Source: Candidatus Scalindua sp. (GTDB taxonomy: Bacteria; Planctomycetota; Brocadiia; Brocadiales; Scalinduaceae). From it: DNA of 64,000 bases. Under the pieces are notes generated by a model. The model was not told where the DNA came from and ran no database searches. It saw nothing but the letters and a program-made list of their open reading frames with translations. A program made the position numbers and the translations under genes. The stretch spans positions 1-64,000 of the forward strand of contig JAIQZU010000084.1 in NCBI GenBank assembly GCA_021776915.1, written 5' to 3'. Shown one piece after another: positions 16,256 through 22,247 of this stretch; the stretch's first letter is position 1; the number at the start of each line of letters is the position of its first letter.

Positions 16256-17446
16256 CTACTGCAATCTTTCTACGCCAAGGAACACTGCCATTTTCAAGAA
16301 AGCCCTGCCAAGAAATGTGCGCTTCATTACAATCGCCTTATAATTGCACACTTCGTCACAGCAAAAGCATCCAATACATTTGTCCTCGTCAACGATAACC
16401 CTGCCATCAGGAGCTGACATCGCTTTTGCCGGACAATTTCTAATACATTCATAACACCTTGTACAATTCGGCTCGTATACTGAAGATACGGATGAACAGC
16501 TATTGTCAAACATTTTTGCAAGCAGGAAATTTGGGATATAATCAGATGCAAAATCCTGTGCAGAGCTGGAAGGCTTCTTAAAATCAGCTACTGTTACCTT
16601 GCTGATGTCCTCACCCACTACATTAATTTCCTTCATATCTGCAGTACCCAGCTTTCTTTCATGGGCGTACTTGATTATAGGTACTTTCATGGGGTCAAAG
16701 CCGATAATTGTACTGGCCACAGCATCTAACGCAACACCATCAAAGCCGGCAATAATTAATCCTACCTTTCTCGGATCTCCGGCGTTAGGGCCGTTACCTT
16801 CCATTCCAATAACAGCGTCCATTACTGTGATGTGAGGCTGCACCATCTCGAAGACATCTACCAATGCCTGTGCCATTAATCTGTTCTTTGGCGCCAGCAG
16901 ATGCACATTCTTCTTTCCATTTGCAGGAATGGAGCCGAACATATTCTTAATCGCACCTGTGTATCTTGTCAGCCCGTGTGTTTTCAGCTTCGGGACAGAT
17001 ACTACAACGTCTACTGATTTAACAGTCTTTGCAATCTTAAATTCTTTTAAGATTGCAGCATTGTTATTTGTCACGTCAATGGCTTCATCTTTGTCAAAGT
17101 TTACGATAATGGCTCCAGTGTCTTCCGCTATCTTGTCTATTTGTGTAATCCTGAAGGCCTTATCTGTTGAACCGGTTCTGAGGCTACCGCAAGAATCTCC
17201 GATGTAGACCTCACAGCCATAATCTTTCATAAAAATGTCAACAAGCGCCCTGATAACAGCAGGGTGTGTATTAACCGCCCTTTCCGGCCCTAATGAGGCG
17301 GAAAGGAGGTTCAGTTTCAACAACACCTTCATTCCTGGCCTTACAATGGTTTCAATGTTGCCCATCAGGCTCAGACATTCTTTAGTAGCAGCACTGACTT
17401 TTTCTAATTCATAATCTTCACAACGTGAGATTGCAATCGTTGTCAT
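16256..17446 (-). CDS. DUF362 protein with C-terminal 2[4Fe-4S] ferredoxin domain
   Basis: A 396-residue cytoplasmic protein. Residues 1-300 are a DUF362 domain (PKLKTHGLTRYTGAIKNMFG; MEGNGPNAGDPRKVG). The C-terminal 80 residues carry two clusters of cysteines, CTRCYECIRNCP and CIGCFCCDEVC, for two [4Fe-4S] centres. DUF362 ferredoxins are common in anaerobes, and their reaction is not established. The second cluster has an extra adjacent Cys pair. It appears to be a single-gene unit. Confidence 0.88.
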   Translation of the reverse strand: MTTIAISRCEDYELEKVSAATKECLSLMGNIETIVRPGMKVLLKLNLLSASLGPERAVNTHPAVIRALVDIFMKDYGCEVYIGDSCGSLRTGSTDKAFRITQIDKIAEDTGAIIVNFDKDEAIDVTNNNAAILKEFKIAKTVKSVDVVVSVPKLKTHGLTRYTGAIKNMFGSIPANGKKNVHLLAPKNRLMAQALVDVFEMVQPHITVMDAVIGMEGNGPNAGDPRKVGLIIAGFDGVALDAVASTIIGFDPMKVPIIKYAHERKLGTADMKEINVVGEDISKVTVADFKKPSSSAQDFASDYIPNFLLAKMFDNSCSSVSSVYEPNCTRCYECIRNCPAKAMSAPDGRVIVDEDKCIGCFCCDEVCNYKAIVMKRTFLGRAFLKMAVFLGVERLQ

Positions 17447-17659: not shown

Positions 17660-18166
17660 TCACGTGATTTCCCTTACCATTTCTTCAAGTGGTTTTCGAA
17701 AAGTTGGCTCAGGAATGGTCTCCGGGTAGCCTAAGGGTGTTAAAACCATGGGTTCCATATTGTCAGGTATGTTTAAGACTTCCCTTACTACTTCCGGTTT
17801 AAAGGCTGCTATCCAGCAAGTACCAAGCCCTTCGGCTGAGGCAGCAAGTATTAAATGATCCATTGCGATTGCCACATCAAAATCAACGTATGTCTTCCCA
17901 TCATTTCTTTTCCAGGCATCATCAGGCAATGCACACGCACATACAATTACAGGAGCCGTATAAAACCATTCCTGCGAATAAGCCTCTTTTAGTTTTTGTC
18001 TGGTTTCTTCATCTTTAACTACGATAAGAGAGAATGGTTGCTTGTTTGCGGCAGATGGTGCAAGCCGTGCAGCATTCAGGATTCGACTGAGTTTATCATC
18101 TTCCACAGGACCTTTTTTATATGCCCTTATGCTTCTCCTTTTGTTTATTACTTCATAAAATTCCAT
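17660..18166 (-). CDS. Nitroreductase-family flavoprotein
   Basis: A 168-residue FMN-binding oxidoreductase of the nitroreductase superfamily, with the N-terminal FMN loop in NKRRSIRAYK, AARLAPSAANKQPFS, and the C-terminal GYPETIPEPTFRKPLEEM. The natural substrate of such short forms is usually unknown (quinones, nitro compounds, flavin). It is monocistronic, between the DUF362 ferredoxin and the divergent ispH fusion. Confidence 0.9.
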   Translation of the reverse strand: MEFYEVINKRRSIRAYKKGPVEDDKLSRILNAARLAPSAANKQPFSLIVVKDEETRQKLKEAYSQEWFYTAPVIVCACALPDDAWKRNDGKTYVDFDVAIAMDHLILAASAEGLGTCWIAAFKPEVVREVLNIPDNMEPMVLTPLGYPETIPEPTFRKPLEEMVREIT

Positions 18167-18388: not shown

Positions 18389-20134
18389 ATGCGAGTCATA
18401 GTTGCAAAAACGGCAGGCTTTTGCATGGGTGTGCGCAAAGCCATGGACAATGTACTTGATGCTGCAAATAAAAGGCAGAGAGACGACGGGTCTGTATACA
18501 CAGAAGGGCCGCTAATACATAACCCTCAAGTACTTGAGAAACTGGAGAAAAAGGGGATAAGCGCTCTCAATGAAGATACTGACCTGTCCAAAAGTACTGT
18601 AGTCATAAGGGCGCATGGCATTACACCCGAAAGAAGGAGAGAGCTTGAAGCATCCGGAGCAGAGATATGTGATGCAACCTGTCCTCGCGTAAAACGGGTA
18701 CAATTAATTATTGAGGAACATGCAAAGAAAGGATACTCTACTATTATAGTAGGCGATGAAGGACATGCCGAAGTAATAGGACTACTTGGATATACTGAAG
18801 GTAATGGTTATGTAATTTCTTCACCGAAAGATGTGTCAGGTTTACCTGACATGGAAAAGATTTGTGTTGTTGCCCAGACTACACAGGATATGAGTACATT
18901 TGCATCAACAGTAGAGAAACTCAAGCATAGATATGGAAATCACAAGGTGTTTGATACGATTTGCAGCTCTACATCAAGGCGACAGGCGGAAGTAATAAGT
19001 CTGAGCGAAGAGGTAGATGCGATGATTGTTGTTGGCGGTAGAGGTAGTGCTAATACAAACAGGTTGGTTCAGGTCTCTACAGACAGAGGCACACCTACAC
19101 TCCTGGTAGAGACAGAAGATGAACTGGATTTAAGGAAACTTGTAGATTACGATGTGATTGGAGTAACAGCCGGCGCTTCAACTCCTAACTGGCTACTCCA
19201 GAGAATTGTCGACAAAGTGCAGGATTTTAAAGGTAAGAAGATAAGGAAAATACGGATATTTGCTGAAAAGGCAATTTCAATCTTAATTGGCAGTTTTATG
19301 TACATTGGAATTGGCGCCGCAAGTTTCAGCTACTCGAGCGCTGTTCTACTCGGCGTCGATCCCAGGATTAAATACTGTGCAATCGCAACACTATTTCTGT
19401 TTTCAATGTATGCTTTAAACCATTTTGCAGACAAAGAGGCCGCTGCCTTGAGTGAGCCGGCCAGGGTAAAGCTTTTTGAAAAATATCAAACCTTTTTTAT
19501 AGTCCTGAGTATTACTGCGGCGATCACTTCCTTCGTTTTGGCATTTACGGTTAGCATAGAAGTATTTTTCTGTGTGTTTTTTGCAACTTTATTTGGAATA
19601 GCATACAGGGTCTCTATAATTCCTAAGAGATTCTCCAGTTTTTTCCGATATCGAAGTCTGGCACAGATTCCGGGTTCTAAGGCGGTATTTATAAGCATAA
19701 CATGGGCTGTGAGTACAGGTTTAATTCCATTCCTGGGAGCAGCAACGTCATCTTTGTCAGCACTTCCTGTAGTATTAGCATTTACTTTCAGCATGGCATT
19801 TATAAGAACAGTATTACTTGATGTAAAGGACGTTCAGGGTGATAGAATAATTGGTAAGGAAACTATACCGATAGCAATAGGAAAAGAAAGCACGAAGGCT
19901 ATTCTAGTTGCAATGTCAATATTATTGACAATACTACTGATTATCAGCCACATGATTGGCTGGACTTCGAAATTTTCATATTATCTTGTTCCATGTGTTA
20001 TCTATGCATGCGGATATTTGTATCTATATCACAAACGACTTATGCCTGGTGGATTAGTCTGTGAAAGTATTACCGATTTTAATTTTATCCTTGCAGGTAT
20101 TATGATAGTATTCTGGCGGCTTTTTGTAATCTGA
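18389..20134 (+). CDS. ispH: IspH (HMBPP reductase) fused to a UbiA-like prenyltransferase
   Basis: A 581-residue two-domain protein. Residues 1-280 are a full IspH, which makes IPP and DMAPP from HMBPP. Its three [4Fe-4S] cysteines are present (C12 in GFCMGVRKA, C98 in ATCPRVKR, C192 in TICSSTSRRQ), as is the H126/E128 pair in GHAEVIG. Residues about 300-581 are a multi-helix UbiA domain that keeps the second Asp motif (DVKDVQGDR, D478-D485). Its first motif is NHFADKE (344-350) where NDxxD is usual. The fusion suggests hand-over of a prenyl precursor to a membrane acceptor; the acceptor is unknown. One continuous frame with no frameshift. Confidence 0.88.
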   Translation: MRVIVAKTAGFCMGVRKAMDNVLDAANKRQRDDGSVYTEGPLIHNPQVLEKLEKKGISALNEDTDLSKSTVVIRAHGITPERRRELEASGAEICDATCPRVKRVQLIIEEHAKKGYSTIIVGDEGHAEVIGLLGYTEGNGYVISSPKDVSGLPDMEKICVVAQTTQDMSTFASTVEKLKHRYGNHKVFDTICSSTSRRQAEVISLSEEVDAMIVVGGRGSANTNRLVQVSTDRGTPTLLVETEDELDLRKLVDYDVIGVTAGASTPNWLLQRIVDKVQDFKGKKIRKIRIFAEKAISILIGSFMYIGIGAASFSYSSAVLLGVDPRIKYCAIATLFLFSMYALNHFADKEAAALSEPARVKLFEKYQTFFIVLSITAAITSFVLAFTVSIEVFFCVFFATLFGIAYRVSIIPKRFSSFFRYRSLAQIPGSKAVFISITWAVSTGLIPFLGAATSSLSALPVVLAFTFSMAFIRTVLLDVKDVQGDRIIGKETIPIAIGKESTKAILVAMSILLTILLIISHMIGWTSKFSYYLVPCVIYACGYLYLYHKRLMPGGLVCESITDFNFILAGIMIVFWRLFVI

Positions 20135-20160: not shown

Positions 20161-20859
20161 ATGAAATCAGGAAGACTATACACAGGCGATTTCAAGGATT
20201 TTAAGAAGAATACTAGAAGAAAATTAGTTACAGGCCTTCTTGTTGTTTTCCCAATCTTTATTACATTTATTGTAATTAAATTTCTGTTTGGTTTAATAGG
20301 CGGAATCCTCTCTCCAGTAGTAAAAAAAATCTTCATTTTTATGGGACTTTCTCTTAAAAATAGTACGGTTGATGAGTTTGTTATCACGTCAGTTGCCTTT
20401 GTACTTACCTTTGTAACGCTTTATTTTATCGGTGTCATAGCGACCAATTTCTTTGGAAAACTGATCTTAAGGTTTTTTGAAGCGATTTTGCACAATACTC
20501 CCATTATAAAGAATATTTACACATCATCTAAAAAAATAATTGAAATTATAAGTCTCCCAAGCAGAGAATCTTTCAAACGTGTAGTTATTGTTGACTATCC
20601 AAGAGTTGGTATGAAGGCATTTGCATTTGTCACCGGAAACATAAAGACAGATGACGGGACGGAACTAACGAGTATATTTCTTCCAACGACACCAAATCCA
20701 ACTTCCGGTTTTTTAATTTACCTTTCTGAGGAAGACATAATAGAAACCAGCATGAATATAGAGGAAGGAATGAAGTTGATTGTTTCAGGTGGGATATTGG
20801 TGCCGAAACACTTGGAACTCTACAAAGATAAGTTGACAAATGAGGCGCATGAAGAGTAG
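20161..20859 (+). CDS. DUF502 family membrane protein
   Basis: A 232-residue protein with two long hydrophobic hairpins (about 22-52 and 68-95). A conserved soluble part follows with HNTPIIKNIYTSSKKI and SIFLPTTPNPTSGFLIYLSEED, the DUF502 signature. The function is unknown. It starts 26 bases after the ispH-ubiA gene and is probably co-transcribed. Confidence 0.88.
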   Translation: MKSGRLYTGDFKDFKKNTRRKLVTGLLVVFPIFITFIVIKFLFGLIGGILSPVVKKIFIFMGLSLKNSTVDEFVITSVAFVLTFVTLYFIGVIATNFFGKLILRFFEAILHNTPIIKNIYTSSKKIIEIISLPSRESFKRVVIVDYPRVGMKAFAFVTGNIKTDDGTELTSIFLPTTPNPTSGFLIYLSEEDIIETSMNIEEGMKLIVSGGILVPKHLELYKDKLTNEAHEE

Positions 20860-20975
20860 GAATTCCCGAATTGCCCGGCCCCCGCTACAAAAAAACCATT
20901 TCCATTTAGCTCTCTTTATCAATCTGTCCAACTAGTCCCGGCTGGCAAGGCACAAATACAAAAGGAGTGAGAAGC

Positions 20976-22247
20976 TTGATTGACGGCCACAAATTAATTC
21001 AGATCAAACAGAAATTCCCATCTGATTCGGTAGATAATGCAACCGAAAGAATTAAATCGGAAATAGCTAACCTGAAACTGGAGAAACGGATTAAACCCGG
21101 CGACAGTATCGCAATTACTGCCGGTAGCCGTGGTATTACAGATATAAATGTGATTACCAGGACAGTTATTGATGAATTAATTAAGTTGCAGGGAAAGCCA
21201 TTCATAATACCGGCCATGGGCAGTCATGGTGGAGCCACAGTCAGTGGTCAGCTTAAAGTATTAGAAGGGTATGGTATTACAGAAAAGAAGATGGGAGTGC
21301 CAATAAAAGCTACCATGGATGTTGTTAAAATTGGAGAAAGCAACAATGGCATTCCTGTTTATGTTGATAATAACGTTATTGATGCAGATCACGTTGTTGC
21401 GATTAATAGAATAAAGCCGCATACACGTTTTGCAGGTGAGATAGAAAGCGGCCTGATAAAAATGTTGCTGGTCGGGCTTGGCAAGGATGCCGGCGCCAGG
21501 GTATACCACAGAGCTATAATGAAGAATACTTTTGACCGGATAGTTGAATCCGTCCTTCCAATCGTTTTGTCAAAGCTATCTGTTTTGTTTGGATTAGCTA
21601 TAGTTGAGAATGCTTATGGCAAGATTGCAGATATCAGTGCGATGATTGGAGAAGACATCATTAAAAAAGAACCCGGACTTAGAAAGAAATCTTTTGAATT
21701 GATGGCAAAGTTACCATTCAGGAATATAGATTTGCTGATTATTGACAACATGGGCAAGGATATAAGCGGCACCGGCATGGATACAAATATTATTGGACGC
21801 AAAGACGAAACCTCTAGTAAAACCCCTAACGAAGGTGCAGAAATATCAAGGATATTTGTGCGTGATCTGACTCCAAATTCACATGGTAATGCGTGTGGTA
21901 TTGGACTGGCAGATTTCACTACACGAAAATTGGTTAACAAAATTAACCTTCAGGAAACGTATATAAATTGCGTTACGGCCCTCCGGCCTGAAGGGGCAAA
22001 GATTCCCATGACTTTTGAATGCGACAAAGACGCCATAGAAGCAGCAGTATCAACATGCGGTATTGAAAATCCTCATCACATGAGGATTGTCTGGATAAAG
22101 AGCACCCTCGATTTAGAAAAGATTATTGTGTCCGAGGGGTATCTTGATGATTTAAATGGACTTGATAATTTTGAGCAAGTATCCTCTGCCAGAGAGACTA
22201 CCTTTGATTCCTCAGGCAACCTCCCACTTTTCGATATGTGGAGTTAA
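20976..22247 (+). CDS. LarA-like (lactate racemase N-terminal, DUF2088) protein
   Basis: The 423-residue product has the DUF2088/LarA N-terminal fold with GDSIAITAGSRGI and FIIPAMGSHGGAT. NRIKPHTRFAGEIESGLIKM follows, where LarA places cofactor- and substrate-binding His/Lys residues. True LarA uses a nickel-pincer cofactor made by LarB, LarC and LarE, none of which are seen here, so lactate racemase activity is doubtful. AAAGGAG at 20962-20967 places the start at TTG 20976 rather than GTG 20967. Confidence 0.8.
   Translation: MIDGHKLIQIKQKFPSDSVDNATERIKSEIANLKLEKRIKPGDSIAITAGSRGITDINVITRTVIDELIKLQGKPFIIPAMGSHGGATVSGQLKVLEGYGITEKKMGVPIKATMDVVKIGESNNGIPVYVDNNVIDADHVVAINRIKPHTRFAGEIESGLIKMLLVGLGKDAGARVYHRAIMKNTFDRIVESVLPIVLSKLSVLFGLAIVENAYGKIADISAMIGEDIIKKEPGLRKKSFELMAKLPFRNIDLLIIDNMGKDISGTGMDTNIIGRKDETSSKTPNEGAEISRIFVRDLTPNSHGNACGIGLADFTTRKLVNKINLQETYINCVTALRPEGAKIPMTFECDKDAIEAAVSTCGIENPHHMRIVWIKSTLDLEKIIVSEGYLDDLNGLDNFEQVSSARETTFDSSGNLPLFDMWS

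Follow-up and report, generated by a model that had tools for sequence, protein, structure and literature searches.

An IspH-UbiA fusion protein with an eroded first aspartate motif in Candidatus Scalindua and its relatives

Introduction

The DNA analysed here, a window of 64,000 nucleotides from a Candidatus Scalindua contig, contains a gene (18389-20134, + strand) in which an IspH domain is followed in frame by a UbiA-type membrane domain whose first Asp motif departs from the consensus. This raises the question of what a UbiA domain does when it is fused to an enzyme of isoprenoid precursor synthesis and its first metal-binding motif is altered. The original prediction, made from the sequence of the locus, was that the fusion would couple the release of IPP/DMAPP to prenyl transfer at the membrane and would thereby touch quinone and unusual lipid synthesis.

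The fusion itself is already in print. In the excerpted text of Rao et al. (2015, Chem Sci, PMC4746011), IspH-UbiA hybrids are named on the basis of 47 cases, all from sulfate reducers, a local supply of IPP/DMAPP to the prenyltransferase is proposed with reference to two DXXXD repeats, and no full-length active hybrid protein was obtained. The UbiA half has been regarded as a probable prenyltransferase in which both Asp motifs are present. In the open-licence literature we found no description of motif I erosion in IspH-UbiA fusions, and no paper on an anammox IspH/lytB with a prenyltransferase or on a UbiA pseudoenzyme.

Results

The gene is a single open frame with an ATG start and encodes a protein of 581 aa, in which Pfam matches to LYTB (residues 3-277, 304.6 bits, cut-off 24.5) and UbiA (PF01040, residues 331-547, 47.7-49 bits, cut-off 34.2) confirm the in-frame fusion. 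The IspH (LytB) domain, residues 1-278 (18389-19222, +), scores 285 bits on TIGR00216, above the cut-off of 187.85, and has Cys12, Cys98 and Cys192, the three Fe-S cysteines on which its description as intact had been based. It is followed by a linker placed at residues about 279-290 (19223-19258, +) from the domain edges, and by the UbiA-fold membrane domain, residues about 291-581 (19259-20131, +), with nine membrane helices predicted by the structural model. On the UbiA part none of the NCBIfam models exceeded its cut-off, the top one being PRK13591 with 50.6 of 238 bits. Among the 132 distinct fusions collected below, C12, C98 and C192 are invariant, as are H44, H76, H126, E128, T165, S220, N222 and S264, a set that we take to include the active-site His, Glu, Thr, Ser and Asn residues of E. 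coli IspH.

Fused orthologues were looked for in other Brocadiales and found in 35 of 39 related genomes, counting that of the window, with identities of 53-90% for the others. Full-length single frames make up 32 of the 35; two (G002, G003) are truncated by the end of their contig, and that of Scalindua rubra (G014) is frameshifted. This distribution rules out a sequencing or assembly artefact, and the alternative that relatives carry split genes fell away: no split ispH/ubiA pair was seen, and fused frames were found instead. Candidatus Scalindua records are the closest named relatives, in line with the anammox-like cell that had been suggested. The frameshift of Scalindua rubra (L014, the same as L099) lies in the UbiA part and comes from one assembly, and the Brocadiales assembly G038 holds three full-length copies of the fusion at 58-59% identity to that of the window, by strain mixture or duplication.

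For the wider distribution we used a profile of nine UbiA parts (E 1e-10), which matched 48 of 294 genomes in the window's phylum (Planctomycetota), 111 of 297 in the phylum of locus L018 (titled Deltaproteobacteria) and 4 of 64 in that of locus L019 (titled Latescibacterota). The frames around most matches are as long as a fusion; the exceptions inspected were seven contig-end pieces (G177, G433, G510, G555, G597, G398, G621), a frameshift between the IspH and UbiA parts in G313, and two unfused proteins, L153 (G350:C6), whose genome also has a fusion, and L088 (G207). Fusion matches in G048, G133 and G342 contain in-frame stop codons (TGA, TAA), and L077 has an insertion within IspH. Inspection by eye of eight long frames (seven fusion, one neighbourhood) revealed no recognisable extra N-terminal domain, the 1193-aa frame of G314 being covered to 716 aa.

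In its own genome (3.79 Mb, rated 95% complete) the fusion gene is the single LYTB match and encodes the sole IspH found there. The four related genomes with no match to the fusion (G011, G018, G029, G035) and G291 have no LYTB match whatsoever, for which assembly gaps are the simplest reading; ispH may really have been lost in G011 and G291, rated 94% and 99% complete, respectively. The profile search for UbiA yielded only two matches in the window's genome, the fusion and a separate protein of 294 aa (C18:33174-33908). The latter belongs to the same superfamily and differs from the fusion in its motifs (NRLVDARYD and QDLQHD) and in its Pfam UbiA score (160.8 bits versus about 49). It passes the TIGR01475 (ubiA_other) cut-off, and with the MqnP models its scores are high but fall short of their cut-offs. 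With this MqnP-like UbiA in the genome, the place of a quinone prenyltransferase is probably already filled, which makes the predicted role of the fusion in quinone synthesis unlikely.

We then compared the metal and ligand sites of the UbiA part with those of characterised enzymes. According to the excerpted report on AfUbiA (PMC4106721), N68, D72, D198 and D202 bind two Mg2+, D76 acts indirectly, and R22 and K146 contact the diphosphate; Ala at N68, D72, R22 or K146 led to loss of GPP binding, and the equivalents of N68, D72, D198 and D202 in E. coli MenA are needed for function. Motif I reads NALYDRDVD in AfUbiA, NNIADLDID in ApUbiA, NTYYDFSKG in human UBIAD1 (PMC9314443, as excerpted) and NRLVDARYD in the genome's other UbiA. 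None of these has Asp at N+1, and the NDxxD form against which the locus had been judged is not a requirement. Given the AfUbiA ligands and the UBIAD1 motif, the diagnostic positions are N and N+4.

In the window, motif I (19418-19444, +; canonical NxxxDxxxD) is N344-HFA-D348-KEA-A352, that is NHFADKEAA, with the Asn and an Asp at N+4 and without Asp at +1 and +8. The alignments pair AfUbiA N68 with N344, D72 with D348, D76 with A352, D198 with D481 and D202 with D485. NHFADKEAA coincides with the first Asp motif of AfUbiA in both the profile alignment and the joint alignment, and a chlorophyll synthase match, though very weak, is consistent with this placement. In the structural model the motif sits where helix 327-347 ends, the place of TM2, so the first motif is not located elsewhere in the domain. 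The claim of an altered first motif therefore stands as to position and departure from consensus, but the missing Asp at N+1 is shared by active UbiA enzymes. Motif II, D478VKD481VQGD485, is intact, as had been stated, and of the four residues that bind Mg directly (N344, D348, D481, D485) the window protein lacks none. The place of AfUbiA K146 is taken by A425; K/R occurs there in 87/132 fusions and in 0/36 from Brocadiales. The place of R22, the basic residue of TM1, falls on I296 or S297 depending on the alignment, and its loss is not secure, because K294 is adjacent and columns 293, 294 and 297 are 44-48% K/R. Y406, the counterpart of AfUbiA Y139, is kept in 122 of the 132 fusions.

To place these letters in the context of the family, we extracted 158 full-length fusion frames, 132 of them distinct, from 173 loci and the window slice; 15 loci were left out because their frames were partial, frameshifted, unfused or IspH-only, and no match came from L002. 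All 29 matches of the window's phylum outside Brocadiales were taken, and the phylum of L018 was represented by its 30 top matches by score plus a selection of 38 from the remainder, so that the percentages hold for this non-random sample only. The Asn and both Asp of motif I occur together in a single fusion (1/132), and all four direct ligands in 32, the window included. N344 is kept in 115 fusions and is accompanied by D/E/N at 348 in 98. Asp is found at N+1 in none of the 132, at N+4 in 67 (Asn in 32, Glu in 13) and at N+8 in eight; D348xxxD352 is present in two. In motif II, D481 is Asp in 92 fusions, D485 in 130 and both in 91, the pattern acidic-acidic-Asp occurs in 92, and D478, D481 and D485 are all Asp in 75, again with the window among them. 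Judged from these alignments, the true anomaly is family-wide: Asp has been lost from N+8 and, in many members, from N+4 too.

The loss at N+4 is unevenly distributed. Asp at D348 is found in 3/36 Brocadiales, namely the window and its two nearest relatives, in 56/68 fusions from the phylum of L018, in 8/25 from other Planctomycetota and in 0/3 from the phylum of L019; Scalindua-type relatives beyond the window's three-member clade have Asn or Tyr. On a fusion tree built without the motif columns, the state of D348 changed at least 11 times and that of D485 twice. Brocadiales group as a single clade whether the tree is built from the full fusion, the IspH part or the UbiA part. No association was detected between losses of D348 and D481 (median p 1, with too few independent pairs).

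As controls we used ordinary UbiAs, 50 high-scoring non-fusion matches from a search of 38 fusion-bearing genomes, of which the joint alignment took 47 with frames below 420 aa. The Asn and both Asp of motif I are present in 44/47 and the four direct ligands in 40/47; Fisher tests gave extreme values, with related sequences taken as independent. Each of the 38 genomes checked has another UbiA. In G308 this is a 592-aa frame without IspH (L256, G308:C34), which carries a motif-intact UbiA (NDLTDSAED) in its second half.

Nine unfused relatives (L153, L247-L251, L254, L255, L088) provided a closer comparison. Unlike the fusions they have no IspH in frame, and eight of them retain the complete motif I. 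The set leans towards intact motifs, since seven members were found with L153, itself intact; all eight of these also have the three Asp of motif II. The exception, L088, has D, D and T at the three motif I places and is closer to the fusion profile (83 bits) than ordinary UbiAs are (10 bits). Erosion is therefore not confined to fusions, which weakens the idea that motif I was lost only after fusion. On the joint tree the fused domains lie on one side of a branch with 97% support, or 90% when L088 and L256 are added, a grouping made weak by long branches. Like the fusions, all nine relatives carry K431, and L153 also has W439 and P447; a role of K431 as a stand-in for the lost ligands is thereby ruled out. 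The nearest NCBIfam model to L153 (973-1851) is PRK13591, with 56 of 238 bits, and the frame of L088 starts from 790.

In seven Scalindua-type pairs, which are not independent and reach dS values of up to 1.19, dN/dS was 0.06-0.19 for the UbiA part and 0.07-0.12 for the IspH part, with the UbiA part higher in six of the seven. At such values the UbiA part is not simply decaying, and the sequences indicate a domain that is constrained, less so at motif I. The segment IPGSK (residues 427-431; 19667-19681, +), between helices 4 and 5, is well kept among the 132 fusions, with P in 119, S in 121 and K in 116; position 431 is K/R in 130 and W439 is found in 129. For R473 and the three Asp of motif II (D478xxD481xxxD485; 19805-19843, +) the counts are 124, 101, 92 and 130, and position 473 is K/R in 131. 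Position 491 is D/E in 126 fusions, T492 is kept in 128, G498 in all 132, and position 563 is D/E in 131. At R473, E491 and D563 other letters are commoner in the 47 ordinary UbiA controls.

An AlphaFold2 model of the fusion, computed from 17 sequences, had a mean pLDDT of 81.3 and a pTM of 0.55, a value that leaves the relative placement of the two domains uncertain. VIA-align matched the IspH part to the solved IspH 3f7t (Z 32.8) and the UbiA part to ApUbiA 4od4 (Z 18.1, 253 residues, rmsd 3.4) and AfUbiA 4tq3 (Z 16.5). Motif II is modelled after helix 459-479 (TM6), and pLDDT falls below 50 in a stretch of each motif loop (349-355 and 484-490).

Discussion

What, then, might the UbiA half do? 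The explanation that we tentatively favour, at slightly less than even confidence, is that the sole IspH is tethered to the membrane by a UbiA module that would still bind an isoprenoid ligand and would not be an ordinary Mg-dependent prenyltransferase. IspH, the predicted HMBPP reductase, would be fixed at the cytoplasmic face of the membrane by its C-terminal domain, as the UbiA fold and the modelled helices suggest. That domain, kin of the NxxxDxxxD prenyltransferases, would have been re-tooled, with its first metal motif eroded and its pocket mouth (IPGSK, R473, D485, E491/T492 and Y406) kept, and would most likely serve as an anchor with a retained pocket for an isoprenoid diphosphate or a lipid. 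Against re-tooling stand the retention of N344 and Y406 and of the acidic-acidic-Asp pattern of motif II in 115, 122 and 92 fusions, respectively, as well as the UbiA-type terpene cyclases, which in the excerpted account are active without an Asp at N+4 (PMC9835599). This explanation and its rivals overlap as readings. The main rival, which strikes us as rather unlikely, is substrate channelling, in which a working prenyltransferase with non-consensus motifs would use locally made DMAPP/IPP or prenyl diphosphates and may depend less on motif I than on K431/R473 and motif II. Both halves belong to isoprenoid metabolism, the UbiA part is under purifying selection, the frequencies of Y406, D485 and a basic residue at the K146 place speak for it, and a canonical mechanism is possible for the window protein and the other fusions, 32 in all, that keep the four direct Mg ligands. 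CloQ, of the different (ABBA) fold, is moreover described in an excerpted source as prenylating without NDxxD or metal (PMC7839719). Yet the erosion of motif I in most members tells against a coupling to prenyl transfer, and Asn or Tyr replaces the Asp at N+4 in the Scalindua-type relatives outside the window's three-member clade. K431, shared with unfused relatives whose motifs are intact, did not arise as a replacement for motif I, and among 26 neighbourhoods no family present in at least four had a fixed place outside Brocadiales.

The conservation of the pocket mouth while motif I was not conserved would also suit a feedback sensor, in which the UbiA-like pocket would bind prenyl diphosphates and alter the activity or stability of IspH. 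By analogy, UBIAD1 is reported to sense GGPP while bound to HMG-CoA reductase (PMC9314443, as excerpted), the mevalonate-pathway enzyme that it controls, and in the fusion the UbiA domain stands in cis with the terminal enzyme of the MEP pathway. With the domain placement uncertain and the K146 place Ala in the window and never basic in Brocadiales, we regard such a sensor as distinctly unlikely. Its boldest form, also improbable in our judgement, would make the UbiA half a former prenyltransferase that now senses prenyl diphosphates or isoprenoids of the membrane from within the fusion and controls the sole IspH, a bacterial MEP-pathway counterpart of the UBIAD1-HMG-CoA reductase pair in one polypeptide; if true, such a sensor would be spread in anammox and other Planctomycetota, a Deltaproteobacteria-type phylum and Latescibacterota. 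A pure membrane anchor without a ligand would accord with the motif erosion, but the near-invariant charged residues are hard to account for by anchoring alone, and we consider it very unlikely. Most improbable in our view is a domain akin to the UbiA-type terpene cyclases, which would ionise a prenyl diphosphate through the three-Asp motif II (DxxDxxxD). The 75 fusions with all three Asp speak for it, as does the lack of Asp at N+4 in cyclases, whose second motif is QDxxDxxxD (PMC9835599). The cyclase form of motif I, Nxxx(G/A)xxxD, is nonetheless limited to 1/132 fusions (L061) and a Gln before motif II to 2/132, the window reading NHFADKEAA and LDVKDVQGD; DxxDxxxD also occurs in the eight unfused relatives with an intact motif I, so that the three-Asp motif is an inherited one.

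The fusions share with the hybrids of Rao et al. (PMC4746011, as excerpted) an N-terminal IspH and a C-terminal UbiA-like domain in one chain, an occurrence in anaerobes and a separate UbiA/MenA in the genome. Unlike those hybrids, reported from sulfate reducers only, they are found also in anammox Brocadiales, other Planctomycetota and Latescibacterota; and whereas two DXXXD repeats were cited, D348xxxD352 is absent from the window and from 130/132 fusions, unless the paper's first repeat is another one. UBIAD1 resembles the fusion in its UbiA fold, in a motif I without Asp at +1 and +8, and in its tie to an enzyme that is key to making isoprenoid precursors, and differs from it as a separate, active protein, the fusion domain being in cis with IspH and its N+4 residue often not Asp (PMC9314443). 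IspH-RPS1 fusions likewise join IspH to a C-terminal partner domain in anaerobes (PMC4746011); their partner is ribosomal protein S1, and the corresponding NCBIfam model matches our protein through IspH only, with 310.9 bits against a cut-off of 624.

The picture that emerges is of a domain, apparently of single origin, that has kept its fusion to IspH in several phyla under purifying selection while its motif I has changed many times. This counsels caution in annotating IspH-UbiA proteins as quinone or lipid prenyltransferases, and both the function of the sole IspH in anammox bacteria and feedback control of the MEP pathway at the membrane can be tested directly.

In the 26 neighbourhoods compared, the fusion is one long ORF in 23, and no neighbour points to a prenyl acceptor. 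Two families found in at least four loci have fixed places in Brocadiales, DUF502 and a nickel-pincer isomerase; DUF362 and three others reach that number at varied places, each extending to one or two non-Brocadiales loci. The DUF502 membrane protein gene (20161-20859, +; PF04367, 100.9 bits), tied to the fusion by position only, lies within 250 bp downstream in 53/53 Brocadiales loci with at least 900 bp of downstream sequence and in 0/57 other loci, several Brocadiales genomes contributing more than one locus. It is followed by a nickel pincer cofactor-dependent isomerase of group 22 (20967-22247, +; NF052515, 513.6 bits, cut-off 400), which is the second gene downstream of the fusion in six Brocadiales neighbourhoods. 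Divergent from the fusion are a small nitroreductase (17660-18166, -) and a DUF362 protein with C-terminal ferredoxin-type clusters (16256-17446, -), and both families recur upstream of the fusion in four Scalindua-type loci.
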